A DNA stretch of 64,000 nucleotides, taken from contig NZ_JAQNDM010000002.1 in NCBI RefSeq assembly GCF_028368975.1, positions 8,798,425 through 8,862,424 on the forward strand, written 5' to 3'. The notes under the pieces are model-generated. The model made no database searches. It was not told the origin of the DNA and was given only the letters and a program-made list of their open reading frames with translations. How positions within the stretch are numbered: position 1 is the first letter of the stretch; each line of letters starts with the position of its first letter. This document shows positions 29,465 to 48,830 of this stretch, piece after piece. Position numbers and translations under genes: made by a program. Source of the stretch: Stigmatella ashevillena. Its GTDB lineage: Bacteria; Myxococcota; Myxococcia; Myxococcales; Myxococcaceae.

Positions 29465-29482
29465 CCGCCCCACTCCTTGCTG

Positions 29483-29504
29483 GCCCCCGAAGCTTCGAGG
29501 GGGC
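29483..29504 (+). terminator. hairpin after the pseudokinase, weak terminator candidate
   Basis: GCCCCC and GGGGGC flank GAAGCTTCGA, 20 bases after the stop. There is no T run. A similar CTCGAAGCTTCGA sequence follows the duplicated copy at about 30212, so it was part of the duplicated unit. Confidence 0.3.
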
Positions 29505-29524
29505 TCAGCAGTTCGGTAAGAACG

Positions 29525-29745: not shown

Positions 29746-29802
29746 TGGGCGCCTGGGGGGGCAGTCCCTGTGGAGCACTTTGGGGGCTACCGGCAGGCTC
29801 AC

Positions 29803-30191
29803 TTCTCAGTCGGGATGCTCGTGCTCGAACTGGCCACTGGGAAGAACCTGCTCTATGCACCGGATGAGGTGACCGCAGGGTGGGGGATGCGGTCTGGCGC
29901 GTGGTGACCTACACGGAAGCGGACGTCGAGCGGTACACGGCCAGTCTCCCGGAGGGACTGCGCATGACGCGGCGCAAGCTCCTCCATCCCGAGTGGGAGA
30001 AGCGCTATCAGACGGCAGGGGAATGGGTGGTTGCTCTGCGCCGCTGGCTCGGAGAGCTGACCTTGAGCCCCGCCGATGCGGTCGAGGAACTGGAAGGCGT
30101 CATGAATGAGGCTTCGGCGCGCTGGGCCAGGGAGGGAGTGGAACGCCCTCTGTCCGCAAGGCTCGTGGATGAAATCACGACGGCCAAGTAG
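29803..30191 (+). pseudogene. decayed second copy of the pseudokinase
   Basis: The sequence FSVGMLVLELATGKNLLYAP matches FSLGVLMLEMSTGNNLLYAP of the intact gene. A change of frame near 29880 and a loss of about 30 residues are followed by VTYTEADVERYTASLPEGLR and RYQTAGEWVVALRRWLGELT, parallel to its C-terminus, ending at 30191. The N-terminal two thirds are missing, replaced by the IS3 fragment. It is a tandem duplicate that was then broken. Confidence 0.7.
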
Positions 30192-31167: not shown

Positions 31168-31509
31168 ATGAGCAATAGTCTGCACCCAATAGAGACGAGC
31201 GAGACGCATAGTTACGATGTGCAACCTGTACATCCGAGCAGCATGATGCCGATCGAGATCGAAGGCGTTGAGTACTTCACCGCGACGGACATCCAGCGGG
31301 ATGTCGGCGTCGTTCGGCAGACGTTGTGGCGGTGGCGAAGGGCCCGGGTCATTCCGCAGGGGCTGCGCTACCGGAACAAGGCGATCGTCTTCACGCGCGC
31401 GGAGGTGGACATCATTCGCGAGTACTCGAACCGTCTCGAGCCCGCGGACTCGCCCCCGCTTCGTCGACAAGGCGGCGCCCCAACTGCGGCGCCGAAGGGG
31501 GTCGCATGA
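31168..31509 (+). CDS. MerR-like HTH regulator of the defence operon
   Basis: A 113-residue protein with a winged-helix core: EYFTATDIQRDVGVVRQTLW then RWRRARVIPQGLRYRNKAIV and FTRAEVDIIREYSNRL. This resembles the DNA-binding part of MerR/excisionase proteins without a sensor domain. It is first in the operon, 34 bases ahead of the GHKL gene, and probably controls expression of the system. A role as recombination directionality factor is possible but less likely without an adjacent integrase. Confidence 0.75.
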   Translation: MSNSLHPIETSETHSYDVQPVHPSSMMPIEIEGVEYFTATDIQRDVGVVRQTLWRWRRARVIPQGLRYRNKAIVFTRAEVDIIREYSNRLEPADSPPLRRQGGAPTAAPKGVA

Positions 31510-31543
31510 TGCCACTGAAGGTCTCGGGGCAGCGAGTGGCGCT

Positions 31544-33148
31544 ATGACGAAGGCAGCACACGAAACGAGACGCGAGGACTGCTCGATCATCGCGCTGGAT
31601 AAGTTCATCCAAGCGACGCGGGACTCGGGCTACAAGGGCACCGCCAGCGCCATCTCGGAACTCGTCGACAACTCGATCCAGGCGGGCGCGACGCGCATCG
31701 CGCTCTCCGTCGAGGCCAAAGCCAGCGACGACGAGGAGAAGGCGATCGAGATCTCCGTGCTCGACAACGGCTGCGGGATGGACCCAACGACGTTGCGCCA
31801 AGCGCTCCGCTTCGGTGGCAGCACCCGCTTCGGTGATCGTCGAGGGCTCGGCCGGTACGGCATGGGGCTCCCGAACGCGTCGCTGAGCCAGGCGCGTCGG
31901 GTCACCGTCTGCACGTGGCAGCCCGGCGCGACGAACGGCAAAAGCAGAGCGCCGCGCGGACGCCTTGTGTCACCGTGCGTGCACTCGTCCTACCTGGACG
32001 TCGACGAGATCGTGCGCGGAGAGATGGTGGAGGTCCCTGCGCCCGAAATCGTGAAGGCGCCGTCGTCCTCGTGCACCGGGAACTCCGGCACCCTCGTTTG
32101 CTGGTCGCAGTGTGACAGGCTCGACAACCGGCGCGTTTCAACGATCGTGCGAAAGCTCGAGGTGGAACTCGGGCGGCGGTTTCGGCACTTCATCTGGAAG
32201 GGCCTCCACATCACGGTCAACGGGGACACGCTGGAGGCGTTCGACCCGCTCTACCTCAACCCGGAGGCCGAGATTTCGGGCGCACAACTCTTCGGCGAGG
32301 AGATGCGCTTCGAGGTCCGCGCCGACCCGGTCGACTCACGGAAGACGGGGTGGGTGCGGGTCCGGTTCACGGAACTGCCCGTCCACGCGTGGCACAAACT
32401 CTCCAACGAGGAGAAGCGTCGCATCGGACTGTCTAAAGGCGCTGGCGTCTCCATCGTGCGCGGCGGTCGCGAGGTGGACTACGGCTGGTTCTTCATGGGG
32501 AGCAAGCATCGCGAGAACTACGACGACTGGTGGCGCTGCGAGATCCAGTTCGATCCCATCCTTGATGAGGCGTTCGGCATCACCCACACCAAGCAGCAGG
32601 CTCGGCCGCAGGCGCACCTCATGGAGGCGCTCACGCCGGACTTGGAGGCGACCGCGCGCGCGCTCAGCGGCCGCGCGCGCAAGGCGCACATGGCAGTGAA
32701 GGCGAGCGAGCGATTCTCCGAGGCGGAGCGCATCGCCAACGAGCGTGACCACCTCCTTCGTCCGTTGCCTCGCAGCGCCGATCCTACGGCCAAGGCCTTG
32801 ATGCGGGAGTTGGCAGCGAGCCACCCGGAACTGCGCGAGCGCGCCGATGAGAAGGACCGGTACAGCATTATCGAGCATGCCGTGAAGGACACGTCGTTCT
32901 TCACCCTCGCGCACGATGGGGACCGGCTCGTCCTCGTGCTCAACCCTGACCACCCCTTTTATCGAGAGATCTACAAACCCCTGTCCGAGGGGGAGGCTCC
33001 GCTAGATCCACAGCTCCGCGCGAAGCTTGAACTGCTCCTCCTCGCGGCGGCGCGCAGTGAGGCGGCCATGCGCGGAAAGGTCCCCGCGCTCGCGAAACAT
33101 CGGCTCGATTGGAGTAATACCTTGGCCGCGTTCCTGAACGACAAATGA
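31544..33148 (+). CDS. GHKL ATPase (MORC/HSP90-like) of the defence operon
   Basis: A 534-residue protein with all three Bergerat ATP-binding motifs: ISELVDNSIQ (Glu39, Asn43), LDNGCGMD (74-80), and GRYGMGLPNAS (from about 103). The rest resembles a transducer domain with a conserved Lys-containing loop and helical C-terminus (SFFTLAHDGDRLVLVLNPDH). MORC/MutL-like GHKL ATPases are known partners of restriction-type systems, where they may form DNA clamps. It overlaps the DruA-like start by ATGA. Its inclusion here suggests ATP-gated DNA loading. The exact subfamily is not fixed. Confidence 0.85.
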   Translation: MTKAAHETRREDCSIIALDKFIQATRDSGYKGTASAISELVDNSIQAGATRIALSVEAKASDDEEKAIEISVLDNGCGMDPTTLRQALRFGGSTRFGDRRGLGRYGMGLPNASLSQARRVTVCTWQPGATNGKSRAPRGRLVSPCVHSSYLDVDEIVRGEMVEVPAPEIVKAPSSSCTGNSGTLVCWSQCDRLDNRRVSTIVRKLEVELGRRFRHFIWKGLHITVNGDTLEAFDPLYLNPEAEISGAQLFGEEMRFEVRADPVDSRKTGWVRVRFTELPVHAWHKLSNEEKRRIGLSKGAGVSIVRGGREVDYGWFFMGSKHRENYDDWWRCEIQFDPILDEAFGITHTKQQARPQAHLMEALTPDLEATARALSGRARKAHMAVKASERFSEAERIANERDHLLRPLPRSADPTAKALMRELAASHPELRERADEKDRYSIIEHAVKDTSFFTLAHDGDRLVLVLNPDHPFYREIYKPLSEGEAPLDPQLRAKLELLLLAAARSEAAMRGKVPALAKHRLDWSNTLAAFLNDK

Positions 33149-35175
33149 CCAACGCGCCCGACACGTCCTGGACCACGCTAGAGCCGGCGCTCCCGAGCAA
33201 GGTGTCGCGAGATGCATTCGTGGAGCACACGCGCGCACTCGCGAAGGTGCGTAGGGATGAGCGCGCCGACGAGGTCCTCGATAAGGTCCGTGCCGAGTTC
33301 GTCGCGGAGGTCAAGGCGTCGCGCCGCGCTGACCGGCAGGCGCTGCTCGCCGCCGGGCTCGTGGTGTGCGACCTCGCGACGCAAGGGTGGCTCATTCGAG
33401 TGCGCGGCGAACGCGTCGAGATCAGGCCCCCGGAGCCTGTCGCTGACAGGGCCGCCGAGAAGGCGCGCATCCGTCGACAGGAGTTGGTCAAACGCAACGC
33501 GCAGCTCCGACAATCGTCGGTCCAGCGCTTCTTGGACTCGATGGAGCGACAACGGCTCCACAACGGGGCGTACGTTTCGATCTACTCGCTCATGCGGGAC
33601 GGACGCGAACTCGCGGAGGGACTTCGGGAGGCGCGCACGCACCTCAACAACGGGTGGGCCGACGTGCTCTCCAACCTGGTCGAGCCATACCTTCAGTTCG
33701 TCACCGAGGAGGCCGCCACGTGCGCGTACACCGGGCTGCGCCTCATGGACGTCTGGCGTTATTTCCGCCACACGTGGACGAACCAGCACACGAGCGTGCC
33801 CGGACGGACGATGCTGTTCCTCGTCCGCGACCGCGCTGCCGCTAACCATCCGGTGATGGGGATTGGCGCGCTGAGCAGCCCCATCATGCAGATCCGTGAG
33901 CGGGACTCGTGGATCGGGTGGCACCCCGACACCTTCCTTGAGCGCGTACGCCGAGAGCCGACGCGAAACCTCGCGAAATGGCTCGTGGACACCCTCGACG
34001 CGGCCATCGACGAGATCTACGTCGCGGATCTACTCGAGGACAAAGTCCTCTCGACGCGTGACCTCACCGCCCCGTCCGACGACGCGCTCGACCGGCTCTT
34101 CAATGAGGGAGCGGAGCAGCGTCGGCTGCACCATCGCTACGCGCGCACACGGGACCTCAAGCGACGCCGCGCCGACCTCTCGGGGGACGAGTACTGGGTC
34201 GCGCAGGCTCGAACGCACCTGTTCCGCAGCAAGCGCGCGCTCGCGCTCGCGACGTTCCTGCGTGCGCGCGCGGTCCTGAACGAGGCGTTCCAAGGCAAGC
34301 CGACGGCGGCGAAACTCGCTGCGCTGGCCGCGACGGGCTACGGCAGCGACGCGATCCGCAGGGTGCTCAAGAAGGCGAAGGCCGATCGCGTCGGCATCGC
34401 GGTCGCGGACATCTCCGTGTGCGGTGCCGTGCAGCCCTACAACGCGCTGCTCGGCGGCAAGCTCACTGCGATGTTGGCGGCGAGCCCGGAGGTCGTGCAC
34501 CAGTACCGTCGTCGCTACGCGGGCGCGGAGAGCGAGATCGCGTCCTCCGTCGCGGGGCGGCCCATTGTCCGCGCGTCGAAGCTAGTGCTCCTCGGCACGA
34601 CGTCGCTCTACGGCGTCGGGTCGAGCCAGTACAACCGCATCAAGATCCCCGCCAACCGCCTCGGCGGCGCCGACAAAGACGTCATCCGCTACGAGGAGTT
34701 GGGGCGCTCCGAGGCATTCGGCACGTCACACTACTCAGAGGAGACCGTCGACGCGCTCGTCGATCTCGTGCAGCAGTCCGACGCGCAGCGGGTGAACAGC
34801 ATCTTCGGGGAGGGCGCCAGCCCCAAACTGCGCAAGGTGAGGCAGGCACTCGAGTTGCTGAGCCTGCCCGCTGGCATGCTCCTGAATCACCACCGCCCGC
34901 GCATCGTCTACGCGGTGAGCTTGATCAGGAACCTCGCTGACTACCTAATCGGCCTCGCTAGGCAGCCGGACTACATCATCCCCGCAGACGCGGCTGCCTC
35001 TACTGCTGCGATTGGTGCGTGGTGGCGGGAGCGGTGGCTCAGGCACCGGATTACCTCCGACCAAGCGCTTGAGGAGGTCGCGCGGCACACGCGGGTGCAT
35101 CCGGTCACCCACGGCGCGCGCGTGCCGCACCAACGCGCGTCGACCCAGCAGCCTATGTTCACCGAACACTCATGA
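33145..35175 (+). CDS. druA: DruA-like DUF4338 protein
   Basis: A 676-residue protein. The middle and C-terminal parts match what I know of DUF4338 (DruA): TMLFLVRDRAAANHPVMGIG then SPIMQIRERDSWIGW, and later VCGAVQPYNALLGGKLTAML, AGRPIVRASKLVLLGTTSLY, GVGSSQYNRIKIPA. The N-terminal 190 residues are an added helical region (LAKVRRDERADEVLDKV; RQSSVQRFLDSMERQRLH), making it longer than the roughly 400-residue DruA of the described type I system. DruA is required for Druantia defence; its activity is unsettled. Overlaps of four bases on both sides show tight coupling. The family call is by motif memory, not search. Confidence 0.7.
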   Translation: MTNAPDTSWTTLEPALPSKVSRDAFVEHTRALAKVRRDERADEVLDKVRAEFVAEVKASRRADRQALLAAGLVVCDLATQGWLIRVRGERVEIRPPEPVADRAAEKARIRRQELVKRNAQLRQSSVQRFLDSMERQRLHNGAYVSIYSLMRDGRELAEGLREARTHLNNGWADVLSNLVEPYLQFVTEEAATCAYTGLRLMDVWRYFRHTWTNQHTSVPGRTMLFLVRDRAAANHPVMGIGALSSPIMQIRERDSWIGWHPDTFLERVRREPTRNLAKWLVDTLDAAIDEIYVADLLEDKVLSTRDLTAPSDDALDRLFNEGAEQRRLHHRYARTRDLKRRRADLSGDEYWVAQARTHLFRSKRALALATFLRARAVLNEAFQGKPTAAKLAALAATGYGSDAIRRVLKKAKADRVGIAVADISVCGAVQPYNALLGGKLTAMLAASPEVVHQYRRRYAGAESEIASSVAGRPIVRASKLVLLGTTSLYGVGSSQYNRIKIPANRLGGADKDVIRYEELGRSEAFGTSHYSEETVDALVDLVQQSDAQRVNSIFGEGASPKLRKVRQALELLSLPAGMLLNHHRPRIVYAVSLIRNLADYLIGLARQPDYIIPADAAASTAAIGAWWRERWLRHRITSDQALEEVARHTRVHPVTHGARVPHQRASTQQPMFTEHS

Positions 35176-36215
35176 GTCCCAAGAAGCCCGCGCGGCCTCG
35201 CGCAACTCAAGTCGCTGCGACGAAGGCGGTGGTGCGGTGGTACCTCGACCAGCACTTCCGCCAGGCTTCTGACCCAGGCGTGGTCGAGATGTTCTGCGAG
35301 CCCTCGCGCGTCGGCTCATTCGCCATTGATCGTCACGCGTTGCGCGCAGGGGATGGCCGAGCGCTCTTTCGCCTCCTCGTCGCGACCGCGATGTTTCAGC
35401 GCCGACAGGACGTGCAGATCCTCCGCATCTTGCAGGGGATGGGCGCGTCGGATGCGGCCGAGATCTCCGACGCAGCAAAGCTCCTTGCGCTAGTCGACGA
35501 TAGCGACTGCGCGAACATGCGCACGACGCAGGCCCTCGCGGAGGCGTGTAATCTCGACAAGGATCCACAGACGCGCGAGGGATGTTGTAGCGCAAACCCG
35601 AGCGTCAGCTGTCACCTCAAGCGACACACTGTCCTCCTCAAGCGCTACGGCCATTTCGGGAAGGTGCCGACGTCGATCGCACTGATGGTCAGAGAGTCTG
35701 GCGCGGAGGACCTCGCCGGTTTGCACCGACTCGTGATGCAGAGAGAGCGAGACCCGCTGGCGCGCGCTCAAGCGCTTGAGCGCGAACTCTCTCGCGCTTG
35801 GCGAGTAAGCCAGAAGATCGCGAGCATGTTCCTGTCCATGGTTACGAACCCAGACCTCTCGCGAGGCCTCGCGCCGTGGTCACAAGGCATCGACTCGACC
35901 TACTACGTTGTCATCGACAGCAACGTCGACCTCTTCCTTGCGACGATCGGGTACAAGGGGACCGGGACTTATGATGCCCGCCGCGACTTCGTCCGCGCAC
36001 TCGCGCGAGGCATCGACCTGACCGAGTTCGACGGCGCGCTGCAGCCCTACAACCCGCGCTTGGTCCAGCAGGCGATGTACCTGTTTATGAGCATCGCCAA
36101 CCGCCGCGCAGCGACGGCTGACTGCATGCACCTCGCCCCGGCTCCGTGCGCTACCTGCCCAAGCGCTGTCCGACGCCGGTGTCCCGCAGGACCGGGGCTA
36201 CCTGCGAGCCGGTAG
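35172..36215 (+). CDS. HhH DNA glycosylase / endonuclease III-like protein
   Basis: A 347-residue protein. The second half has the endonuclease III/MutY plan: a helical HhH-like region (RAWRVSQKIASMFLSMVTN), then YYVVIDSNVDLFLATIGYKG, where VIDSNV stands at the place of the catalytic VDTHV aspartate. It ends with four cysteines, Cys-x7-Cys-x2-Cys-x7-Cys (CMHLAPAPCATCPSAVRRRC), like the iron-sulfur loop of that family but with wider spacing. It could excise bases or nick at modified or damaged DNA. It lies between DruA- and DruB-position genes, which is not part of canonical Druantia. Activity is inference. Confidence 0.65.
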   Translation: MSPKKPARPRATQVAATKAVVRWYLDQHFRQASDPGVVEMFCEPSRVGSFAIDRHALRAGDGRALFRLLVATAMFQRRQDVQILRILQGMGASDAAEISDAAKLLALVDDSDCANMRTTQALAEACNLDKDPQTREGCCSANPSVSCHLKRHTVLLKRYGHFGKVPTSIALMVRESGAEDLAGLHRLVMQRERDPLARAQALERELSRAWRVSQKIASMFLSMVTNPDLSRGLAPWSQGIDSTYYVVIDSNVDLFLATIGYKGTGTYDARRDFVRALARGIDLTEFDGALQPYNPRLVQQAMYLFMSIANRRAATADCMHLAPAPCATCPSAVRRRCPAGPGLPASR

Positions 36216-36360: not shown

Positions 36361-37998
36361 GTGGACTACGCAAGGGATCTGCACAGTAGAAGAATCATCG
36401 CGGCGGAAGATGCCGTGTCGGCGCAATTTTACGAGTGTCCTTGCCCCGGCTGCAGTGGTCACGTCTTTCTTCGTGATGGAGGCAACCGACGAGCGCACTT
36501 TGCCCACCGCGCCGGTGAAGGCACTCGTGCATGTGACGAGTATTTCCCCGGTATTGGAGGTGGCGGTGAGAGTGTTGCGCGGCGTTTCTCCGAAGTCGAG
36601 GGTGACCCGTCGGAACTAGGCTTACTGCTCACCCAATTCGATGGTTGCTGGGGTTTGGGGCTTCGCCTACCGGAGATTCCAAGCAACGAGTTGGGGGAGA
36701 CGTCGCTCGGAGCGCTACGTTCGTCGTTCGTGGACGTCTACGCGGGGGGCGACCAACTGCTTCGAGTTAGTGCCCTGGATCTACGCCCTGGCGTAGGCGC
36801 AGCGCGCGTTGACGTGGTGCCGAGCCTTCAGGCGTTCCGAACGCAACCGGCTGGTTTGTGGCCGGCCTCAGTGGACAAAGAGCGGTGGTCCCTTGAGTCC
36901 CGAGGGCTCGACGCCAAGGGCGCGTTGTTTCGCCTCCGCCGCGGAGAGTGGACGAGGCTCCTCGCTAACTCTGGAGTGCACCACGGTGAGGCGCTCCTCG
37001 TTCTCGCCGACGGACGCAGTACTCCACCGCGATCGATCGTGTTGGAGAGCAATGTGCTGGTTGCTAGCGGTGGCTTGCAGTGGACCCTCTGGGAAGTGCG
37101 ACTCCCAGGCGAGCCCGTCGCGCCCGTGCTCGCGTGGCTTGCCCGGCTTGGGCATGGGTTCATCCCTCGTCCGTGGAGCGTGGGTCTTGCGACACCGCCC
37201 CGGGCTTATAGTGATCGAAACGAGCCGATCTTCTGGACCGGCGATGCGCCGGTGCTGATGTTTGACGCGCCCCAGCCTGGCTCTGCCACGATGGTCGCCT
37301 TTAAGAGCGGCACCAACTCCCACAGCGCCAGTGTGCAAGCCACCGAGGGCAGCATCGTCCTCGTCAGTGTTCGTGCACGAGATGCTGGTCTTGCTCGGCT
37401 ATGCGTCGCGGGCGAGCAGAGCGCCAACGTCGACCTCGCGTACATCCAGCGTCCATCGGTGAGTGCGCTCCGCGAGTTGCTGGGGCAGACCGCGCGACTT
37501 CGTATTCAGATCGGCCAGCAGCAGATCGAGGCATGGCAGAACTCCACTCACAACATTCGCCTGCTTGTGCGTGAGCAGCCGGAGGTACGTGTCGACCTGG
37601 GAGACGAAACCGCACGTGCACGTGTGACGGTGTGGGGGCGAGGCAAGCATCGTTCTCGACGTGGACTCGATTGGAAAGGGGTGTCGCGCGCGGTCGAGGA
37701 CGCACTTGCAGGCGCTGAGCGCTTGGAGATCGATGCTGGCAATCTCGGGCGAGTTGTCATTCTCATCCTCCGTGTATCCGAAGAGACCATCCGTCGGGGC
37801 GAGTCCAGCGACCGCCTCACATGGCACGATCATATTGTGAGCATGGGCGAACTCGCCGAGAAGGGCTGCACGCCGGCCATCCTTAAGCTCCCACGACAGG
37901 CCGATTCATTCGTCCCACGTCAGGTTTCGCCGGCAGTGCTCGTCCGCTCGCGGATGGCGCTCCGGCGGCGAGTCGAGGCTGAAGGACGTCGCTCATGA
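36361..37998 (+). CDS. DruB-position protein with CoiA-like N-terminus
   Basis: A 545-residue protein. The N-terminus (ARDLHSRRIIAAEDAVSAQF, CPCPGCSGHVFLRDGGNRRA, HFAH) has a Cys/His cluster at residues 26-49 as in the zinc region of CoiA-like proteins. The remainder is beta-rich and unrecognised (LFRLRRGEWTRLLANSG; TVWGRGKHRSRRGLDWKG). Size and position agree with DruB of type I Druantia (about 550 residues). The only sizeable intergenic gap in the operon, 145 bp, precedes it, and the start is a GTG. It is coupled to the next gene. Confidence 0.6.
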   Translation: MDYARDLHSRRIIAAEDAVSAQFYECPCPGCSGHVFLRDGGNRRAHFAHRAGEGTRACDEYFPGIGGGGESVARRFSEVEGDPSELGLLLTQFDGCWGLGLRLPEIPSNELGETSLGALRSSFVDVYAGGDQLLRVSALDLRPGVGAARVDVVPSLQAFRTQPAGLWPASVDKERWSLESRGLDAKGALFRLRRGEWTRLLANSGVHHGEALLVLADGRSTPPRSIVLESNVLVASGGLQWTLWEVRLPGEPVAPVLAWLARLGHGFIPRPWSVGLATPPRAYSDRNEPIFWTGDAPVLMFDAPQPGSATMVAFKSGTNSHSASVQATEGSIVLVSVRARDAGLARLCVAGEQSANVDLAYIQRPSVSALRELLGQTARLRIQIGQQQIEAWQNSTHNIRLLVREQPEVRVDLGDETARARVTVWGRGKHRSRRGLDWKGVSRAVEDALAGAERLEIDAGNLGRVVILILRVSEETIRRGESSDRLTWHDHIVSMGELAEKGCTPAILKLPRQADSFVPRQVSPAVLVRSRMALRRRVEAEGRRS

Positions 37999-40052
37999 AG
38001 GTGCTGGGGCTCGTTCAATGGACCGAGCGCGACAAGCGTGGCAGCCCAATCGCTGGCGTACGCCCGCTCGTCGAGATCCAGAAAGGCGAATGGCGAACGA
38101 TCGAAGCTCTCGAAGAGTTCCCGTCACGGGGCCAAGTCTTCTGGCCCAACGCGCAGGTAGCCACCGAGAACTCACTGGTCATTTTTCACGCAGAGTCGAA
38201 CGCTGGCCAGAAGGATGAGTTTAGAGTCGTCGACCCGAAGCTAGTGTACGAAGTGCTCGACCTCCGACGGTACGGAACCGCAACGGAGGTCCGTGCAGCG
38301 CTCATCGAGGGCATTCGCTTGCCAGTACAATTCGGAGCCGCGCGAGCGCTGGTCTGGTGCAAACCGGATCTGCTGGTTGGACCCGTTGAGTTGAACCGAG
38401 TAGCGAGTGGAACGGTAAGGTTGGTCGGGACCAACTTACACCGTCTCGCGGCATACAAGGGCGCCCAAGTTCGATCGGTGCCTGTCGATCATGCGGAGCG
38501 ATTGCTGCGCGTGGATGACACCGCGCCTTCGAGCTACGTCGATTGGGACGACGATGCGATCGTCTTACGTCGTGCTCTTGAGTCCGCAGTTCGGGTTGCG
38601 AAGCAGGCAGGGCACGACACCGGGCAGACGAAGAAGCAGATCGAAGATGCCGCCCGGGCGCTGGCAGCACAGGGTGGTCCCGATGCGCTGCTGGATCGCT
38701 ATCGGCTCGAAAGAGCGCTGACGTTGCTCGAGAACACCGACGTGGTCGTGCGCAGCGCTGGTGAACTCGCGGAGTCGCTGCGAGAGCATCCAACTGTCAA
38801 AGCGTCGCTCGACGAGTTCAGCGTGAAGGTTCGCACCGAGGTTGAACAGCGCGCCCGTGCAGATCTTGAGCAGGGACTCGCAGTGGAGCGGGCCGCGCTG
38901 GGGGAAACAACTGAGGCGCTCGCTCAGACAAAGTTGCTGCTGGAGACGAGAGCGCAGGAGTTGCACAAAGCCGAGGAGCTTCTCGCTGAGGTTCAAAGCC
39001 TAACGGCCAAGACTGCCAAGGCTGCTGAGGCGGCGGTGGACGCGCGTGTGCTCGCTGCGTTGGAGCGCCCTTTGGAACTCCTCGCTGAGGTCAGTGTGTT
39101 GCGCCCATTCTTGGGAGCAGGAGGGAGTCGCGCTGAGAGCGCGACGAATGCTCCAGCGTCATCACCCGCTGCTTCTCCACAGCTAGACTGGGCACGCGCT
39201 CGCGGTGAAGTGGCTAAGGACGTGAAGTCGCTCCGTAGTTCGCTTAGCAGAGCGGCCCGCACCCACAGGTTTCAAGGTGAGCCGTTGTCAATGCTGCTTC
39301 AGATTCATGCCGCCATCGCCGCTGGCCTAATGCCCATCACCTTGGGGCCCAGCGCCCTCGCGGCTCTCACCGCTTACGCGCACGGCGCCTGCGGCGGGCG
39401 GTTGCACATCGTCCACGTCTCCCCCAGTGCCATCCACGCCCATGACTTTGACTATGCGCCTAGGGGCGGCATCGTAGTCGCTGCCGCGGCCGCGAAGGAT
39501 ATCGATGGCATCTCGCTCGTCGTCCTCGAGGGCGCGAATCGATCGCCGCTTGAGGCGTCCGTAGTACCCCTCCTTCAACTGGCCGATGTTGGACTCTCCC
39601 CGGTGGCCAACGCGCCCGGCCTTCGGTTGGCTGCCTCGTTGGTGGTCGGCGCGACGACCGTGCCCGTCACACCACAGCTTTGGAGCCACGCCGTCGCGAT
39701 TCATCCCGGGCCGAGCGCACCCGCGACGCAGGGCGCCACCTTGGGGGATGCCCCTCGGTCGAGCGAACTCTTCGCGCTTGGCGATGAGCCGAAGGGCGCT
39801 ATCGATGCCTTGCTTGACGCTTGGCCTGATTGCCACGAGCTACGTCCGGCAATGAGCCGTTTCGGCGCGGCGCTGACCCAACTCTACGACGAGGAGGACC
39901 GCATCTCCGATGCTCTGCGCAGTGGTCTGGTTCTTCCATATATCGCGACGGCGCTTTCCCCCGAAGAGCAAGCTGAGGCGTTGGCCAACGCGGGAGATGG
40001 CGATGGGGCCCTCGCGTTGGCCCTGCGTGGGCTCCGAAGGAGGCTCGCCTAG
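37995..40052 (+). CDS. DruC-position protein with coiled coil and degenerate AAA-like domain
   Basis: A 685-residue protein. Residues about 200-365 form a long coiled coil (ARADLEQGLAVERAALGETT; ARAQELHKAEELLAEVQSL). The C-terminal third resembles a McrB-like AAA ATPase that has lost its P-loop: PITLGPSALAALTAYAHG (about 445-462) stands where GPxGxGKT is expected, and ISLVVLEGANRSPLEASVVP (about 505-524) resembles a Walker B plus sensor. It is probably structural. Size and order fit DruC (about 640 residues). The AAA relation is my inference from pattern. Confidence 0.6.
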   Translation: MKVLGLVQWTERDKRGSPIAGVRPLVEIQKGEWRTIEALEEFPSRGQVFWPNAQVATENSLVIFHAESNAGQKDEFRVVDPKLVYEVLDLRRYGTATEVRAALIEGIRLPVQFGAARALVWCKPDLLVGPVELNRVASGTVRLVGTNLHRLAAYKGAQVRSVPVDHAERLLRVDDTAPSSYVDWDDDAIVLRRALESAVRVAKQAGHDTGQTKKQIEDAARALAAQGGPDALLDRYRLERALTLLENTDVVVRSAGELAESLREHPTVKASLDEFSVKVRTEVEQRARADLEQGLAVERAALGETTEALAQTKLLLETRAQELHKAEELLAEVQSLTAKTAKAAEAAVDARVLAALERPLELLAEVSVLRPFLGAGGSRAESATNAPASSPAASPQLDWARARGEVAKDVKSLRSSLSRAARTHRFQGEPLSMLLQIHAAIAAGLMPITLGPSALAALTAYAHGACGGRLHIVHVSPSAIHAHDFDYAPRGGIVVAAAAAKDIDGISLVVLEGANRSPLEASVVPLLQLADVGLSPVANAPGLRLAASLVVGATTVPVTPQLWSHAVAIHPGPSAPATQGATLGDAPRSSELFALGDEPKGAIDALLDAWPDCHELRPAMSRFGAALTQLYDEEDRISDALRSGLVLPYIATALSPEEQAEALANAGDGDGALALALRGLRRRLA

Positions 40053-41095
40053 TGAGCGTCGAGGTCATTCGAGCGACCAAGGACGCAATCAGTGCTGTGA
40101 GGCGCACGTTGGGGCTTGGCTCGTGCGAGGCGCCCGACAGCCGCTTCGAGATAATGCGCGCGACGGTCTGGAGTATCGCTGCTCCGGGGAGCAAGGCACA
40201 CATCAACCGTGTGCTAAGTGCAGCCCTGCCGACCTGGCAGATCCTATCGGATCGCGCGACGGCCACCGAAGAGACGCTTCGTGCAGAACTCCGAGGCGCG
40301 CTCTCTATGCTGGAGGACGCAGGCGATCTCATAGGGCTGAGCGGTGGTTACTGGGCTCCTGCTACTGCCCGGTTCATCGAGATCCCTAGAGGCGCGGGCT
40401 ACTTGCTGGTGGGGGGAGTCCCATCTGCGTTGCTGCAACTCAGCTGCGACAAGATTCAGTTTCACGGACCTCATCGTCACCTTGCAAAGCTCCCCCCGGA
40501 ATTGGCCTCGTTGCTGCCAATTGAGGATCTCAAGTCGTGGTCGAGGTTGCCTAATGTCTCGCTCCAAGACTGGGCCCGCGAAGTGAACGAATCACACGAG
40601 CGGCAGCCGTACGCGCCGACGAGCGCGGATGCGTTCGAGTTCTACCTCCCGGTGAAAGCGAGGCCGGGGGCCCCGCAGTTCAAGCGCTGGTCGGAGGACG
40701 CGGGTAACGCGACTGGAACGCTGCTCGCGCGTCGGCGGCGAGTTTATGGGGCGCGCGAATTCCGACTCGTGGACGTGCGTGGGGGGCGGATCGTCGGCGC
40801 GTGCGAGTTGCACGACGTCGATGTCCGGCGGCTAATGTATGCGCTCGATCTCGCCGGAAACAGCCCCGTTCGTGCGCGGCCTCTTCGCGTAGCGGACCAG
40901 ACGCAGTGGCTGTTCACGAGCGAACTGCCGCGCGCTGAGCAGCGCGCGCTCGCCGCGTTCGGAACGCTCGAAATTCCCGACGACCGTCCCTACGAGCGAC
41001 GGTGGACATTTTCACGGAACGAAGGACTCGCGCTCGACATGCTGCGCTCCCTTGGGATCGCGCTCGGGCAGCCCCCCCGAGAGGAACGTCGATGA
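40052..41095 (+). CDS. DruD-position protein
   Basis: A 347-residue protein beginning at a GTG that shares one base with the preceding stop. The N-terminus looks like a winged helix (RVLSAALPTWQILSDRATAT, LRGALSMLEDAGDLIGLSGG). The rest is mixed with no family I recognise (FRLVDVRGGRIVGACELHDV). Length and position immediately before the giant helicase agree with DruD of type I Druantia. It overlaps the helicase start by ATGA. Confidence 0.6.
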   Translation: MSVEVIRATKDAISAVRRTLGLGSCEAPDSRFEIMRATVWSIAAPGSKAHINRVLSAALPTWQILSDRATATEETLRAELRGALSMLEDAGDLIGLSGGYWAPATARFIEIPRGAGYLLVGGVPSALLQLSCDKIQFHGPHRHLAKLPPELASLLPIEDLKSWSRLPNVSLQDWAREVNESHERQPYAPTSADAFEFYLPVKARPGAPQFKRWSEDAGNATGTLLARRRRVYGAREFRLVDVRGGRIVGACELHDVDVRRLMYALDLAGNSPVRARPLRVADQTQWLFTSELPRAEQRALAAFGTLEIPDDRPYERRWTFSRNEGLALDMLRSLGIALGQPPREERR

Positions 41096-44000
41096 GCCAG
41101 CAAGTCGAACTTGGTGTCAACGAAGTCGCGCAGCGAATTCACCTGCGCTTGCGCAGATACCTCGAAGCGCAGTACCACATTCGGAACTCCGCCCTCATTG
41201 AAGAGCGAAGGATTCTCCTTGAGGAGCCGGGCGGAATCTCCCAGCGACCGTTCATCGAGGTCACGCCGTCGTACGCAGTAACTGGGAGCTTCTCAGGCCT
41301 GACCGCGCCCAATCTGGTCACCGGGCTCTTGCAGGAGTTGGTCAGTTGGAAGCCGGGGATTGGTGTCTACCCTCCGTACCGCCATCAAGCTGATGCTCTT
41401 GAGCACTTCTTTGCGAAGGGGGCGCAGAGCGATGACCTCGTAGTCGCTACGGGCACTGGCTCCGGCAAGACGGAGACGTTCCTCTACGCCATCCTCGGCG
41501 CCCTGGCGCTCGAGGGAACAGAACGCCGCGAGTCGTTCGCACGCCACGGCGTGCGCGCCTTGCTCTTGTACCCGATGAACGCGCTCGTCAGCGATCAGAC
41601 CGCGCGTCTGCGTAGGCTCCTAGGCGATGAGCGATTGGCAAGCCTAATGGAGGAGCGCTGGGGACGGCGCGCGCGGTTCGGTATGTACACGAGCCGAACG
41701 CCGTACCCAGGCGTGCGTAAGGGCGCGAAGGACAAACGTCACCTCGACAGGCTCGTTGGGTATTACGAACAGCTTGAGACTTCGACGAAGCCAGAAGAGC
41801 GAGACCTCGTCGCCGAACTCAAGAAGCGTGGACGCTGGCCCGCCAAGGATATCGTCGCATTCTACGCCCGAGCTCTTGAGGAGAAGGCCCTCGTAAAGAG
41901 CGGAAAGCGCGCCGGGAAAGAGAATACGCTCCACCACTGGGGCGCGCGTTTCCTGACACAGCCTGGAGATCGTGAACTCCTCACTCGGCACGAGATGCAG
42001 GAGCAGGCTCCTGACCTCCTCATCACCAACTACTCGATGCTCGAGTACATGCTGCTCAGGCCCATCGAGCGGCCGCTGTTCGATCAGACGCGCGCGTGGC
42101 TCGCCGCCGACCCGAGGAACCAGTTCCACCTGATCCTCGACGAGGCGCACATGTACCGTGGCGTTGGAGGCGCGGAGGTCGGACTTCTGATTCGCCGGCT
42201 CCTCTCTCGCCTCGGTGTTGGTCGTGATCGCTTGCGCTGCATCCTCACGACCGCCAGCCTCCCTGACCAAGGTACCGCAGCGGATGAGGCCGCGAAGAAG
42301 TTCGCGCGTGATCTGACCGGCGAAACCGGCAAGAGGACCTTCGCGATTGTTCGCGGTACGCGCGAGAAGCGCTCCGGGGCGCGGCCTGGGACTCCCGATG
42401 AGGCGAGCGCGCTCGCGGCCGTCAACCCGGCTGCCCTAGCGGCTGCAGGGTTCGCGCCCGACGAGGCGAATGCGTCACTTGCCCGCGTCGCAGCGCGCAT
42501 TGGCTGGGCGACTCCTCCCACGATCGTGGAGAAAGGAGACTCGGCGACACTGGCGACACGCCAGTACATTTGTCGGTCGCTCACAGGTTTTGGCCCGCTC
42601 GAACTGCTCTTGGAGCACGCGTCGGGAAACGCGACTGACTTCGCAGTGCTGGCCCAAACGCTCTTCCCTGGCAGTTCGCTCGGCGAAGCAGAACGTGCCA
42701 CTGACGGACTCCTCGCGCTCGGCACATTCGCGCGGCGCACTGAGCCGGGGCGGAACGAGCAGCCGCTCCTCCCAACGCGCGTCCATGTGCTCTTTCGCGG
42801 GTTGCCGCCGCTCTATTCGTGTATCAATCCGAACTGCTCCGCGCGTCGTAACGGAACTGGGACTACGCTCCTGGGTCGTCTGTACACGGAGCCACGCACG
42901 CAGTGTGAGTGCGGTGGGCGCGTATTCGAACTGCTCACCCACCGCGATTGTGGCGCGGCCTACCTACGCGCGTTCGCGTCGGCGGACTTCCTCTGGCACG
43001 AACGAGGCGGGAAGCTGACGGAGTTCGGCAGGCCCCTTCATGAACTGCACCTGTTCCTCGAAGAGCCTCACCCGGAGCAGAGAGGCGCTGTCGAACCTCT
43101 GCTGCTCGACGTCCAAACTGGCCGCGTTCTCGGCACCGCGAGCGCGACGACTGGTGGAACACGCCTCTGCTACCGCGCTCACGTGGCGGCCGTAAAGGTC
43201 ACTAACACGACGACGTTCAGCGTGTGTCCTGCCTGCACGCGACCGACGCAGTCAAATGGCTCCCTGAAGATCATGGATCTCGCGACGAAGGGTGAGCAGC
43301 CTTTCGCCAATCTCGTGAGAGAACAGTTTGTTTCGCAACTTGCGACCAAGGGACCGAGTGAGCAACACCCGAACGAAGGTCGCAAGGCGCTCCTTTTTAG
43401 TGACGGTAGGCAGAAAGCTGCTCGACTTGCGCGCGATCTACCGCGAGAGGTGGAGCGCGACTCGTTCCGCGAGGCGCTGGTCCTCGCTTGCCAAGAGCTC
43501 GCGCAACTTTCCACGCCTCAGCCAGCGATCCTCGATGAGACCATGTATGCGGCGTTCGTCGCCGTGTGCGCGCGCCACCACCTCCACTTTTTTGACGGGC
43601 GCGACCAGGACAAACTCCTCGAAGAGTGCAGGCAGTTCCGTAAGGACTTCGACGACCTTGATACCGCCCTCGCAGATAAGTGGCGTCCCACACCGCCGAC
43701 ACGTTTCCGCACTGCGCTGGTCCGCCAAATAGGCGACCCCTATTACTCGCTCGTTGCAGCCTGCGCGGCGGTGGTTGAAGCGGCGCCGGCGACTCTCCGT
43801 AAGTTGCAGAAGCGGCTCACCAGCGTCGGCACATCATCGATGCTCGATGAGGTCGCGAACGCGTGGCTCCGTGAGATGTTCCGTATGTATGCGTTTGATC
43901 CCGCCCTCGGGAAGGACGCACGCCTCGACGAGTTTGGCTTCTTTCAGCCTGTCCGTGCTGCTGACGGGCTGAAGAAGTTCTTCGAACTTATCCGTGTGCG

Positions 44001-47000
44001 GACCGGACTCAGTGTTGCCGATGTTGAGCGACTCCGAGACGAACTCTTCGAGGTCTTCACCCGGGAGGCCTCCGCTGGCGACGACTCCGGTCGCCTCGTC
44101 ATGACCGATAGCATCGTGATGCGCCTCGCGCTCGACGAAGAATGGTTGCAGTGCACAGTCTGTGGCCACCTTCAGTTGAAGCCGTTCTTGGGTGTCTGCG
44201 GGAACTGCCAGGACAAGCGCCTTGAGAAGCGCCCACCCGAGCACGAGTACATGCGTTCGCGGAAGGGTTTCTTCCGTGAGCCACTACGCGCGGTCCTCCA
44301 AGGAGCGCGGCCGGTGCACATCACGGCTGAAGAGCACACCGCTCAACTCTCCCAGCGCGACGCTGGTGATGTCTACGCGACCACAGAGGAGTTCGAACTC
44401 CGTTTCCAAGACGTCCCGCTCGGCCCCGACAAGCCACCCGTCGATATCCTGAGCTGCACGACGACGATGGAGGTCGGCATCGATATCGGATCGCTGACTG
44501 CAGTCGGCCTTCGAACGGTTCCGCCCCAACGTGAAAATTATCAACAGCGCGCCGGTCGCGCGGGTCGTAGAGGTACGTCGGTCTCGTCCGTCCTCATGTT
44601 CGCGCAAGGGGGGGCGCATGATGCCCATTACTTCGCCAATCCACAGGCGATCATCAGCGGGCCGCCGCGCGAGCCGCGCCTGAAGGCTGATAACCCGCGC
44701 CTAGCGCGGCGGCATGTCAACTCGCACCTGCTTCAGACTTTCTTCCATTCGCGCCTGGACTCGCTCTCGGCTGAGCATCAAGCGGAGATCGCTAAACACC
44801 GACCCGGCATCATGAGCGCGCTCGGCGATGCAAAGGAGTTCTTCGAAGGAACGGCCGAGTTCTCGTTCGGGGAATTCGAGCAGTGGATGAAGAGGGAGGT
44901 GCTCACCCCGAAGAGCGCCATCGTCGAAGAGGTAGCTGGCTGGCTCCCGGCGGCGATCTTCAAGACTGATGGGGCCGACGAGAAGCGGAAGTTCGTACGC
45001 GAGATTGCCGACACGCTGCTTCACACTCTCACTCAGCTACGCGATGGGCGCCTCGGCGCGTCGAGCGGTGAGGCTGTACCCAGCGAAGAGGATGCGAACG
45101 ACGACGATACTGGAGGGCTCCTGGACCTCTGCTTCGAACGCGGGCTTCTGCCGTCCTATGCGTTCCCGACAGACCTGTGCAGCTTTGTAATTCAGGAATG
45201 GGACAAGAGCACCTTACAGTGGCGAATCAAGGTCGCCGAACGGCCACAACTCGCGAAGGCGCAAGCGCTGAGCGAGTATGCGCCAGGGCGCCTCTTGGTC
45301 GTGAACAAGCAGACCTATCGTGTCGGCGGCGTCTTCGTCGACGGGCCGCCGTCTGCAACTCCGGCGGCAGCGCTGTTTGCGCAGCCGCTCAACCGCTACG
45401 TAGGCTGTCCGCAGTGCTCCTACATCTCGATCGAGGGTGGGAGGGCTTCGGCCCGTACGGTCGAAGGCTCGCCATGCCCGGTGTGTCGCACGCCGCTCTT
45501 CGTACGCGAGTACCTGGACCCGCCGGGGTTTTCGCCAGAGGAGGGGTGTGCGCTGCGCGAGGGTGATCGCGAGCAGGACGTCACCTACGCTTCGTCAGCC
45601 CAACTCCCCGAGATCGCCAGTCGCGACGAGTTCGACTGGAGGGATGGCCCCGGGGTCAACTTCAGCCACGCGTACGGAGAAGACATCCTGTTGGTCGTCG
45701 CGAACAAAGGGAAGGACGCGGCAGGCTTCAGCGTATGCGAGAGCTGTGGCGGCGCGTGGATCGACGGCGAGGAGCCGGACGGTTCTCATCCGCGTCCGTT
45801 CCTTGTTCCGAGGCACATTCTCGAACGCGATGGCGTAGGTAGAGCTTGCAACGGTGAGGTGCGGCGCGGTTTGTTCTTAGTGCACGACTTCCGAACCGAC
45901 CTGCTACTGCTGCGCGGCGCGTTCCGTCAGCCGTTGGACTTTCAGCCGAAGCAGCCTTGGCTCTACGACGCGCTCGCGACGCTGGCTGAGGCGCTCGCGC
46001 TTGGTGCCAGCCTCCATCTCGACATCGACCCGGGTGAGCTCTCGGCGGGGTTCCGCCTGCTACCGGCGCTCATGGATGGTGACCAAGGAGTGGCCGAACT
46101 GTACCTCTTCGACACCGCCTCTGGCGGCGCGGGCTATGCGGCCGATGCTGGCGAACAACTGCAGCAGGTCCTCGACCGGACGGAACAGCTTCTCCGCGTG
46201 TGCCAAGGAAATTGCGAGCGCTCGTGCACGAAGTGCCTGCGGCACTACGGCAATCGCTTTCTGCACGGGCGCCTCGACCGTCGACTCGCGTTCCAATTGC
46301 TGCGGTACTTTCGCGCGGGAGAGATCCCGCCCTTTGCATCTGCGGCCGAGCAGATCCGAAAGCTGCGTCCGCTCGCCCGCTTCCTCGAAATGGAGGGGTG
46401 GACCACAGTAACGGACCCGAGCGGTGCCCTGCGCTGCGAAGGACCTCGCTCGATGACGGTGGGCATCTATCCCGCGTTCCTCGCGAACGATGCCGCCGAG
46501 ATGACGCACCCGACTGTCGCTCCCAGCGATGCCCGGCGCGTCATCTTGCCGGACTACCTCGTGGAGCACGATCTGCCCTCCGCATACCAGCGCGCTACGG
46601 GCCTCACGAGGCCGAGCACATCTGCGCCTCGTCCTACGGCTCCGACTTCGTCGACGGGACGTATCGTCGAACTCTCGGTAAAGGACCTGCGAAAAGCGGA
46701 CGATGACAAGACTCACGGCAAGGTCCGGGTGCTAATCGACGTCGCCCTTGCTGCGGGTGCGTTCGCCGTACGCGTCCCCAGCCCAGGTCTCAAGAACGTC
46801 GGGTTTGGTGCAGGTGGGTGGCTCGTTGTTCGTCCCGTCTCGCCTAGTGACCTCGGCTCTGACGCGTGGCTAGTTGTTCTTCGACCGCGTGGGAAGTTCG
46901 GGGCCACTGGCTCGGTCTGGACAGTCGCGCACGTGAAGGAGTTGTTGAGCTATGAGGGGGCACCGTCGCGGCTGCAAGTCTCGTACGGCAGCGCCACGGG

Positions 47001-47085
47001 CAAGGAGTACCGCCCTGAGCGACTTGACCGCACTGAGGTCACGCTCGCTGCGACGATCGTGTGCCACGCCGACGAGGCAACATAG
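41092..47085 (+). CDS. druE: DruE-like giant SF2 helicase with DUF1998 domain
   Basis: A 1997-residue protein. The helicase core has Walker A VVATGTGSGKTETF (about 118-131), the DEAH box LILDEAHMYRGVGG (about 346-359) and motif VI YQQRAGRAGRRG (about 1150-1161). Several zinc-ribbon-like segments are spread through it (CINPNCSA, CECGG, CTVCGHLQL, CGNCQ, CPQCSY, CPVCRT). The C-terminal Cys cluster CQGNCERSCTKCLRHYGNRF is typical of DUF1998/MrfA-like helicases. Size, domain order and final position in the A-E block match DruE (about 2000 residues). It probably translocates on or unwinds invading DNA. Confidence 0.85.
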   Translation: MSQQVELGVNEVAQRIHLRLRRYLEAQYHIRNSALIEERRILLEEPGGISQRPFIEVTPSYAVTGSFSGLTAPNLVTGLLQELVSWKPGIGVYPPYRHQADALEHFFAKGAQSDDLVVATGTGSGKTETFLYAILGALALEGTERRESFARHGVRALLLYPMNALVSDQTARLRRLLGDERLASLMEERWGRRARFGMYTSRTPYPGVRKGAKDKRHLDRLVGYYEQLETSTKPEERDLVAELKKRGRWPAKDIVAFYARALEEKALVKSGKRAGKENTLHHWGARFLTQPGDRELLTRHEMQEQAPDLLITNYSMLEYMLLRPIERPLFDQTRAWLAADPRNQFHLILDEAHMYRGVGGAEVGLLIRRLLSRLGVGRDRLRCILTTASLPDQGTAADEAAKKFARDLTGETGKRTFAIVRGTREKRSGARPGTPDEASALAAVNPAALAAAGFAPDEANASLARVAARIGWATPPTIVEKGDSATLATRQYICRSLTGFGPLELLLEHASGNATDFAVLAQTLFPGSSLGEAERATDGLLALGTFARRTEPGRNEQPLLPTRVHVLFRGLPPLYSCINPNCSARRNGTGTTLLGRLYTEPRTQCECGGRVFELLTHRDCGAAYLRAFASADFLWHERGGKLTEFGRPLHELHLFLEEPHPEQRGAVEPLLLDVQTGRVLGTASATTGGTRLCYRAHVAAVKVTNTTTFSVCPACTRPTQSNGSLKIMDLATKGEQPFANLVREQFVSQLATKGPSEQHPNEGRKALLFSDGRQKAARLARDLPREVERDSFREALVLACQELAQLSTPQPAILDETMYAAFVAVCARHHLHFFDGRDQDKLLEECRQFRKDFDDLDTALADKWRPTPPTRFRTALVRQIGDPYYSLVAACAAVVEAAPATLRKLQKRLTSVGTSSMLDEVANAWLREMFRMYAFDPALGKDARLDEFGFFQPVRAADGLKKFFELIRVRTGLSVADVERLRDELFEVFTREASAGDDSGRLVMTDSIVMRLALDEEWLQCTVCGHLQLKPFLGVCGNCQDKRLEKRPPEHEYMRSRKGFFREPLRAVLQGARPVHITAEEHTAQLSQRDAGDVYATTEEFELRFQDVPLGPDKPPVDILSCTTTMEVGIDIGSLTAVGLRTVPPQRENYQQRAGRAGRRGTSVSSVLMFAQGGAHDAHYFANPQAIISGPPREPRLKADNPRLARRHVNSHLLQTFFHSRLDSLSAEHQAEIAKHRPGIMSALGDAKEFFEGTAEFSFGEFEQWMKREVLTPKSAIVEEVAGWLPAAIFKTDGADEKRKFVREIADTLLHTLTQLRDGRLGASSGEAVPSEEDANDDDTGGLLDLCFERGLLPSYAFPTDLCSFVIQEWDKSTLQWRIKVAERPQLAKAQALSEYAPGRLLVVNKQTYRVGGVFVDGPPSATPAAALFAQPLNRYVGCPQCSYISIEGGRASARTVEGSPCPVCRTPLFVREYLDPPGFSPEEGCALREGDREQDVTYASSAQLPEIASRDEFDWRDGPGVNFSHAYGEDILLVVANKGKDAAGFSVCESCGGAWIDGEEPDGSHPRPFLVPRHILERDGVGRACNGEVRRGLFLVHDFRTDLLLLRGAFRQPLDFQPKQPWLYDALATLAEALALGASLHLDIDPGELSAGFRLLPALMDGDQGVAELYLFDTASGGAGYAADAGEQLQQVLDRTEQLLRVCQGNCERSCTKCLRHYGNRFLHGRLDRRLAFQLLRYFRAGEIPPFASAAEQIRKLRPLARFLEMEGWTTVTDPSGALRCEGPRSMTVGIYPAFLANDAAEMTHPTVAPSDARRVILPDYLVEHDLPSAYQRATGLTRPSTSAPRPTAPTSSTGRIVELSVKDLRKADDDKTHGKVRVLIDVALAAGAFAVRVPSPGLKNVGFGAGGWLVVRPVSPSDLGSDAWLVVLRPRGKFGATGSVWTVAHVKELLSYEGAPSRLQVSYGSATGKEYRPERLDRTEVTLAATIVCHADEAT

Positions 47086-48830
47086 TGGCGCGCTTCATCC
47101 CTGAGATAGCATCGACGGACATCGTCCACGACTCTGAGCGAGTAGTCTATGAGGCGCTGCGCGGTCTCCCGACGGGCTTTGTAGTTCTCCACTCGTTCCC
47201 CTGGCTCCGTCCCACGCGTGATCTTGCGGGCGAGCCACTCCGCGAGGGCGAGGCGGACTTCGTCATCCTCCACCCGGAGCGCGGTCTATTGGTCCTTGAG
47301 GTGAAGGGGGGCAAGCCGGAACTGACAGGGCGCACGTGGTCTCGCGGCGGGAAGGAGTTGCGTGACCCGTTCGACCAAGCTCGGAAGAGTCGCTATGCGC
47401 TCCTTGACGCGATCGAGGAGCGCACGCGTAAGCGCGTCCACCGCGGAATCTTTGCTCATGGTGACGTTGTCGTGTTCCCGCACGCTCGGTTCTCGGGGAC
47501 ACTACCCGTCAACAGTGATCCTCACATCCTCGTTGATGCATCAAGCCTTCCGATGCTCCCTGCGAGGATCGAGGAGGCGTTCACTGCATGGGCGCGGAGC
47601 GAAACGCACCTGACTCCAAGCCAGTTCACAGAGCTTCTTGATGCCCTGATGCCGAAGCTGAGGTTGATGCGCTGCGCAGGGGCGGAGGTCAGCGCGGAGT
47701 ATCATCGCATCGTCCAGATCACTCTCGATCAACGTGCGACCCTGTTGGGGCTCCTCGAGAATGAGCGCGTACTCGTCGAGGGTACGGCGGGTTCTGGGAA
47801 GACACTCCTCTCTCTCGAGTTCGCGCTGACGCGCGCTGACTGTGGTGAGAGTGTCTTGCTCCTCTGCTACAACCGCCACCTTAGCGCATGGCTTCAGGAG
47901 CAAGCCAAGCACGACCCGAGAGCACACCGTGCTGGCGCGCTGTTGGAAATCTCGACGTTCCACGCGTGTGCGCGCCGTTTGGCGCAGCGAGCGCGTGTGG
48001 ATTTCGACGTCCCAAGCACCGGCGAGCAGGCATTTTGGGATGAAGACGTCCCGCTCATTATGGAGCAATCACTTGAGGTCCTGCGCGCGCGGGGGCAAGC
48101 AGAGGCCTTTGATGCGATCGTCGTCGACGAAGCGCAGGATTTTGCTCCCGACTGGTGGGTGACGATTGAGTCTTTATCGCGCATAGGACAAGCAGGTCGG
48201 CTTTACGTCTTCCTTGATATGAAGCAGAGCCTGCGTGGCGTGGCGAAGCTCCCACCGGTTCCGCTCCCGGCCCGTTTCCGGCTTACAACGAACTGCAGGA
48301 ACACGAAGGCCATCGCCCGAAGCGGGGCAGCGCTCGCTAGCATCGACATTCGTCTGCTGCCTGGCTCGCCGTCGGGAGAGGCGCCTGCCGTTCGAAGAGC
48401 AGGGACGGCGGTGGCCGAGGCGGGGTTGGTGCTCTCCGAGGTCCGGCAGTTGTTCCTGCAAGGCATCAAGCCGCAGCAACTCGCGCTGATCGGTGCCGCC
48501 TCCCACGCGAAGGGCTCGCTCGTCCGCCACGCAGAGGTGGACGGGATCCCTCTTGTCGACGATGCCGTCGACTGGAGGCGAGGCGCTGGCGTTCTCGTGA
48601 CGACAGCGCGCGCATTCAAGGGACTCGAGGCAGACGTCGTGGTCGTTTATGGTCTCAGCGGGTTCGGCGCGCTCTTCACGCCGACTGACCTCTACGTGGC
48701 ATGGACAAGAGCAAGGCATCGCCTTGTACTCGTTTGCCAGTCCGGCGAGGTGCGCGCGACGGTTGAGGCGGCGCTCTTGGAGGCCGAACGGAGTTCAAGA
48801 ATTGCTGAGGCTGTTAACCGAGGCAGTTAG
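47085..48830 (+). CDS. NERD nuclease-SF1 helicase protein
   Basis: A 581-residue protein. The N-terminus is a NERD nuclease-related domain: GEADFVILHPERGLLVLEVK with Asp58 and the Glu72-x-Lys74 pair. An SF1 UvrD/DUF2075-like helicase follows: Walker A VEGTAGSGKTLLSLEF (about 229-244), IVVDEAQDFAPDWWV (about 344), VTTARAFKGLEADVVVVYGL and LYVAWTRARHRLVLVC. Its GTG start shares one base with the DruE stop, so it is co-translated. It can be read as the nuclease arm of the system; canonical Druantia lacks it. All key motifs appear intact. Confidence 0.85.
   Translation: MARFIPEIASTDIVHDSERVVYEALRGLPTGFVVLHSFPWLRPTRDLAGEPLREGEADFVILHPERGLLVLEVKGGKPELTGRTWSRGGKELRDPFDQARKSRYALLDAIEERTRKRVHRGIFAHGDVVVFPHARFSGTLPVNSDPHILVDASSLPMLPARIEEAFTAWARSETHLTPSQFTELLDALMPKLRLMRCAGAEVSAEYHRIVQITLDQRATLLGLLENERVLVEGTAGSGKTLLSLEFALTRADCGESVLLLCYNRHLSAWLQEQAKHDPRAHRAGALLEISTFHACARRLAQRARVDFDVPSTGEQAFWDEDVPLIMEQSLEVLRARGQAEAFDAIVVDEAQDFAPDWWVTIESLSRIGQAGRLYVFLDMKQSLRGVAKLPPVPLPARFRLTTNCRNTKAIARSGAALASIDIRLLPGSPSGEAPAVRRAGTAVAEAGLVLSEVRQLFLQGIKPQQLALIGAASHAKGSLVRHAEVDGIPLVDDAVDWRRGAGVLVTTARAFKGLEADVVVVYGLSGFGALFTPTDLYVAWTRARHRLVLVCQSGEVRATVEAALLEAERSSRIAEAVNRGS

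Follow-up and report, generated by a model that had tools for sequence, protein, structure and literature searches.

A predicted endonuclease III-like HhH-GPD protein encoded in a myxobacterial Druantia operon and recurring beside other defence genes and DNA methyltransferases

Why does a Druantia-like operon of Stigmatella ashevillena carry an additional gene between druA and druB, and what might its product do? The operon lies in a 64,000-nucleotide stretch of genomic DNA, which was analysed as a whole and is referred to here as the window. The additional gene, called X below, is an open reading frame of 347 codons with its own ATG and stop, and its start lies inside the druA stop in an ATGA overlap; the reading frame is real. 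An overlap of the same kind joins the GHKL ATPase gene to druA. Comparison of X with its two close homologues (L001 and L002) gives a dN/dS of about 0.12–0.17, and X is under purifying selection. The operon consists, in order, of genes for a small HTH protein, a GHKL ATPase, DruA, X, a DruB-like protein, a protein at the druC position, DruD, DruE, and a NERD-UvrD protein (Table 1), and a related genome (L092) has the same gene order through NERD-UvrD. PADLOC recognizes DruA upstream of X (8.5e-197) and DruB, DruD, and DruE downstream, in the order DruA, B, D, E of type I; the gene at the druC position has no PADLOC match. Type I Druantia as described (PMC7251935) consists of druA–E and lacks genes for a glycosylase, a GHKL ATPase, and NERD-UvrD, so X is dispensable for it, which counts against the effector reading set out below. 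The NERD-UvrD gene, which overlaps the end of druE, may be an additional, so far unrecognised component of this Druantia. Upstream of the operon, a primase/helicase-like protein and a serine recombinase were read by eye from the translations (19030–24891), and their presence suggests that the Druantia island sits in an integrated element. A transposase (integrase core) remnant was likewise noted by eye on the minus strand at 29429–29860, downstream of two kinase genes.

Table 1. Window coordinates of the operon genes and of the principal segments of X
Feature	Position	Strand	Basis
Small HTH protein (mad1-like), first cassette gene	31168..31509	+	family matches
GHKL ATPase, MzaB-like	31268..33148	+	reading frame as listed; true start downstream of 31268
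druA	33145..35175	+	family matches; ATGA overlap with X
X, HhH-GPD (EndoIII-like) glycosylase/AP-lyase homologue, 347 aa	35172..36215	+	conservation and predicted fold
Insertion with second invariant Cys set (C113, C126, C139, C147)	35508..35612	+	conservation
Helix-hairpin-helix segment, residues 206–225, LSRAWRVSQKIASMFLSMVT	35787..35846	+	aligned to EndoIII LPGVGRKTA
Invariant K215 inside the HhH segment	35814-35816	+	aligned to EndoIII Lys
D249 of VIDSNV	35916..35918	+	aligned to EndoIII catalytic Asp (VDTHV)
C-terminal Fe-S-type loop, C318-x7-C326-x2-C329-x7-C337	36123..36182	+	invariant
druB-like (CoiA_N)	36361..37998	+	family matches
druC-position gene, no family match	37995..40052	+	position
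druD	40052..41095	+	PADLOC
druE helicase	41002..47085	+	reading frame as listed; likely start 41092
NERD nuclease-UvrD helicase, last gene	47061..48830	+	kept after druE in L092

X has no family match in Pfam, NCBIfam, PADLOC, or PHROGs, and neither a sequence search nor a profile search of the PDB sequences returned a match. A preliminary description of this DNA had proposed an endonuclease III (EndoIII)/MutY-like protein and named structure prediction among the means of checking it. The AlphaFold model of X (15 rows; pLDDT 85.1, pTM 0.86) is matched best in VIA-align by EndoIII 1orn (Z 13.3, 205 of 214 residues aligned, rmsd 3.5), then by archaeal and bacterial OGG, Deinococcus EndoIII-3, and the queuine salvage enzyme DUF2419, and the model of a homologue from a second clade (L014, pLDDT 87.7) is matched by MjOgg (Z 12.3) with EndoIII second best (Z 11.8); Z values of such size can be modest for helical proteins, yet the match lists are filled by the HhH-GPD superfamily. 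Foldseek alone gives weaker matches, with a best E-value of 0.014 and all values above 0.01. The fold matches listed for both models are HhH-GPD proteins, and the uracil-DNA glycosylase superfamily is not among the matches listed. DUF2419 (Z 12.9) shares the scaffold and was weighed lower, since the set of Lys, Asp, and four Cys residues points to EndoIII. The predicted fold of both clades is thus that of an HhH-GPD glycosylase, in agreement with the topology foreseen in the preliminary description. Relative to EndoIII, X is about 10% identical in the structural alignment and about 130 residues longer.

At the level of sequence, an unguided profile alignment against about 20 myxobacterial EndoIII proteins places RVSQKIA of X on GVGRKTA, with K215 on the EndoIII Lys, VIDSNV on VDTHV, with D249 on the catalytic Asp, and the four C-terminal Cys residues of X on the four Cys residues of EndoIII. 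The profile score exceeds those of all 100 column-shuffled EndoIII decoys for each of two related alignments. In hhalign, the 16-row alignment scores 22.7 against a mean decoy score of 15.1, with one of about 60 decoys higher (24.6), and the X–EndoIII pair has an E-value of 0.001–0.03. X does not match Pfam PF00730, a criterion for detecting the HhH-GPD superfamily (EndoIII branch), and one of 15 homologues matches it, at an E-value of 0.041. Taken alone, the sequence link between X and EndoIII is marginal, and it is the predicted fold that carries the case. A lysine at the position of EndoIII K120 is the mark of bifunctional glycosylase/AP-lyases such as EndoIII and OGG1, and MutY has a serine there. 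By this residue, X is EndoIII/OGG1-like (bifunctional type) and not MutY-like, which favours the EndoIII half of the earlier proposal over the MutY half.

The homologues of X were gathered by sequence and not by neighbourhood, from genome contigs, 195 Myxococcota genomes, and one viral-collection contig; one all-genome scan used a single sequence as query and finds close relatives only. The conservation set comprises 16 sequences that are 32–96% identical to X of the window, all from Myxococcota or an unassigned contig. Residues invariant in all 16 include C42, C113, C126, K130, C139, C147, R158, G160, G163, K164, P166-T167-S168, R211, V212, K215, D249, N251, Q299, and the C-terminal C318, C326, C329, and C337. 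The two elements singled out in the preliminary description, VIDSNV at the position of the catalytic Asp and a C-terminal four-Cys loop, are both present; D249 of the former and the four cysteines of the latter are invariant, the loop being in register with that of EndoIII. Further features that it did not mention are the second Cys set, C42, K215, and the motif RxGxxGKxPTS, which is common to the homologues. The second Cys set, judged from its conservation, is perhaps a metal site. Like EndoIII, X combines the HhH-GPD fold, in its predicted structure, with a helix-hairpin-helix segment carrying Lys, a downstream Asp, and a C-terminal four-Cys loop, but unlike EndoIII it has a Cys-rich insertion and an extra stretch between the HhH segment and the Asp.

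The preliminary description also remarked that the Cys spacing is wider than in the classical iron-sulfur loop, which is correct for the clade of the window (C-x7-C-x2-C-x7-C against C-x6-C-x2-C-x5-C in EndoIII). The homologues form two clades, and in the second the spacing is C-x4..6-C-x2-C-x4-C, near the classical one. The wide spacing is therefore a trait of the window clade and no argument against an Fe-S loop.

The genomic context of X is defence, whereas EndoIII is a housekeeping enzyme. At all 14 independent X loci found, defence genes or a DNA methyltransferase gene lie within 10 kb of X, and at nearly all of them such a gene directly adjoins it. The first locus (the window, L001, and L002) is Druantia I, and two others (L003 and L004) carry GHKL-DruA-X. 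In L005, X stands tail to tail with DruA and near a DruK-like nuclease, a DrmD/BrxHI-like helicase, and DruE; in L041, DruA, SspF-like, and DndH-like genes lie within about 20 kb, with DruA about 8 kb away. Methyltransferases accompany X in L033 (D12-type and N6_N4, with an SMODS (CBASS) gene nearby), L034 (D12-type, then X), L035 (N6_N4, then X), L036 (X, a PD-(D/E)XK-motif protein, the motif read by eye, and a DUF1156-type methyltransferase), and L040 (X, then N6_N4). The remaining loci are L037 (HmaA-HmaB-HmaC-McrB-McrC-AAA-subtilase-X), L038 (PbeC, which is Dnd-like, then X), L039 (BREX PglX-PglZ-BrxL-X), and L072 (HSDR_N protein, MTaX1, C5 methyltransferase, TIR protein, X). The earlier placement inside the Druantia core is accurate for the window, with DruA before X and DruB, D, and E after it, but it undersells the distribution: X is not specific to Druantia and also occurs with BREX, Hma, PbeC, restriction-modification (R-M), and plain methyltransferase genes.

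PF01555 methyltransferases number 0–8 per 4–14 Mb genome among relatives of the window, and by a rough estimate a random gene lies within 3 kb of one in about 0.3% of cases; such a methyltransferase directly adjoins X at 3 of the 14 loci. The methyltransferases at L033, L034, L035, L036, L038, and L040 retain an SPPY, DPPY, or DPPF motif. No X was found in plasmids and phages, and among viral contigs X occurs in one, which is probably a host island; in this contig the five genes of the locus are consecutive (L072:974-8945). The genes from HmaA to X in L037 (L037:3627-19899) are codirectional and look like a composite defence cassette. The unclassified Druantia-like locus L005:1-13178 comprises DruE, the DrmD/BrxHI-like helicase, a 909 aa protein, the DruK-like nuclease, X, and inverted DruA.

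Within Druantia, X is part of a separable HTH-GHKL-DruA-X cassette. Comparison of the window with L002 gives 94–98% identity for HTH-GHKL-DruA-X, as against 56, 53, 64, and 81% for DruB, C, D, and E, respectively. L004 retains GHKL-DruA-X (91, 78, and 76% identity) with a different large protein and a DruE of only 37% identity. X therefore travels with GHKL and DruA, with the boundary of the unit just after X. On a Roseivivax plasmid (L079:12034-15788), an ATP-binding protein and DruA form a lone overlapping pair with neither X nor DruB–E.

Our leading reading, to which we assign about half of our confidence, is that X is a divergent bifunctional glycosylase/AP-lyase of the EndoIII-type HhH-GPD kind, which defence cassettes would employ against phages as a base-excision effector. 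The enzymatic part is proposed because of the residues of X and the part in combating foreign DNA because of its genomic context. Lys215 would be the nucleophile and Asp249 its catalytic partner, and the C-terminal loop would hold a [4Fe-4S]-type cluster. The Cys-rich insertion would correspond to the base-contacting region of EndoIII, and the specificity of X has for this reason probably changed. Its target may be a base by which foreign DNA is recognised, either phage-modified or within a site that is devoid of the host mark; X would excise this base and then nick the strand, leaving AP sites and nicks that could block replication and give DruE and NERD-UvrD their entry points. A role as a defence effector is supported by the occurrence of defence or methyltransferase genes at 14 of 14 loci although the homologues were found by sequence, by the translational coupling of X to druA and its co-inheritance with HTH-GHKL-DruA, and by the precedent of the defence glycosylases Brig1–3. 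Brig1–3 defend by excising phage bases, and Brig1, a member of the uracil-DNA glycosylase superfamily, is described as for the most part monofunctional (PMC11078745, PMC13160076). X, whose activity is predicted, would resemble Brig1, Brig2, and Brig3 as a DNA glycosylase in a phage-defence setting, and it differs from Brig1 in being an HhH-GPD protein with the Lys of the bifunctional type and Fe-S-type Cys residues.

The methyltransferases next to X also fit a role in repair, and an alternative that we regard as unlikely is that X repairs lesions or mutable sites that the linked defence system causes in host DNA, such as deamination products at methylated positions. Mig.Mth, a G/T-mismatch glycosylase encoded beside an R-M system, is the model for such self-repair. 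An EndoIII-type active site would suit this task, methyltransferases adjoin many X homologues, and the VIA matches of the clade 2 model include 1kea (Z 10.1), whose title names a thermostable thymine-DNA glycosylase. However, the defence genes at the window locus include no methyltransferase gene, most of the linked methyltransferases are amino-methyltransferases (SPPY/DPPY motifs) and not C5-methyltransferases, and X keeps a Lys where Mig.Mth has a Tyr.

Unlikely, too, is a restriction role at the loci where a methyltransferase and X form a pair (L034, L035, and L040), in which X would excise a base in those sites that its partner leaves unprotected. X would then resemble the R.PabI family, which we take to be a protein family other than X, in the idea of restriction by base removal and in having a methyltransferase partner. 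For that family, restriction through base excision together with a partner methyltransferase has been described (PMC10273834). If this proposal were true, the pairs would be a base-excision R-M system built on an EndoIII scaffold, and BREX, Hma, and Druantia would have taken up X as an extra effector.

We think it rather improbable that X is catalytically idle and serves as a DNA-binding or redox sensor subunit guiding DruA or DruE to damaged or replicating DNA: HhH-GPD proteins can bind AP or damaged DNA uncut, and Mag2 structures are among the VIA matches, but both catalytic residues are invariant among sequences at 32–96% identity, and an idle protein would not need them. The poorest candidate, which we hold to be very unlikely, is a DNA-modifying transferase that decorates bases like the phage amino acid:DNA transferase (ADDT) or HMUDK_hel (the 5-hmdU DNA kinase helical domain), whose scaffold is similar in Foldseek, both models having ADDT as their top viral fold match and the second matching HMUDK_hel proteins as well, since X and its homologues have no Pfam match to PF18724 or PF18723, PF18724 occurs in 0 of 189 genomes and PF18723 nowhere in the genome of the window, profile comparison with HMUDK_hel is null, the HMUDK_hel sequences read have no four-Cys loop, the window cassette has no 5-hmdU kinase, and an EndoIII scores alongside ADDT. 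HMUDK_hel/ADDT was accordingly rejected as the family of X.

Returning to the reading of X as a base-excision effector, we regard the protein as an instance of a known fold that would serve defence in a new and recurrent way. No earlier description of X was found in the literature searched, to which subscription journals contributed little; the surveys of YprA-type systems (including Druantia), BREX, and Dnd contain neither "glycosylase" nor "HhH" in their text, and within the same literature none was found that pairs "HhH-GPD" with "restriction-modification". The glycosylases described in phage defence so far, Brig1 and its homologues, belong to the uracil-DNA glycosylase superfamily. If the proposed role is true, X would add a second, unrelated fold in Druantia, BREX, Hma, Dnd-like, and R-M loci, and base excision would be a general defence strategy. 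Druantia would gain a new enzymatic activity, and the X family could be a source of enzymes specific for new DNA modifications. A second HhH-GPD gene, an EndoIII-like reading frame of 239 aa, was seen about 0.5 kb from a PF01555 methyltransferase gene at G000:C2:9250790-9252535 (L050), and this pairing recurs at matching places in several relatives.
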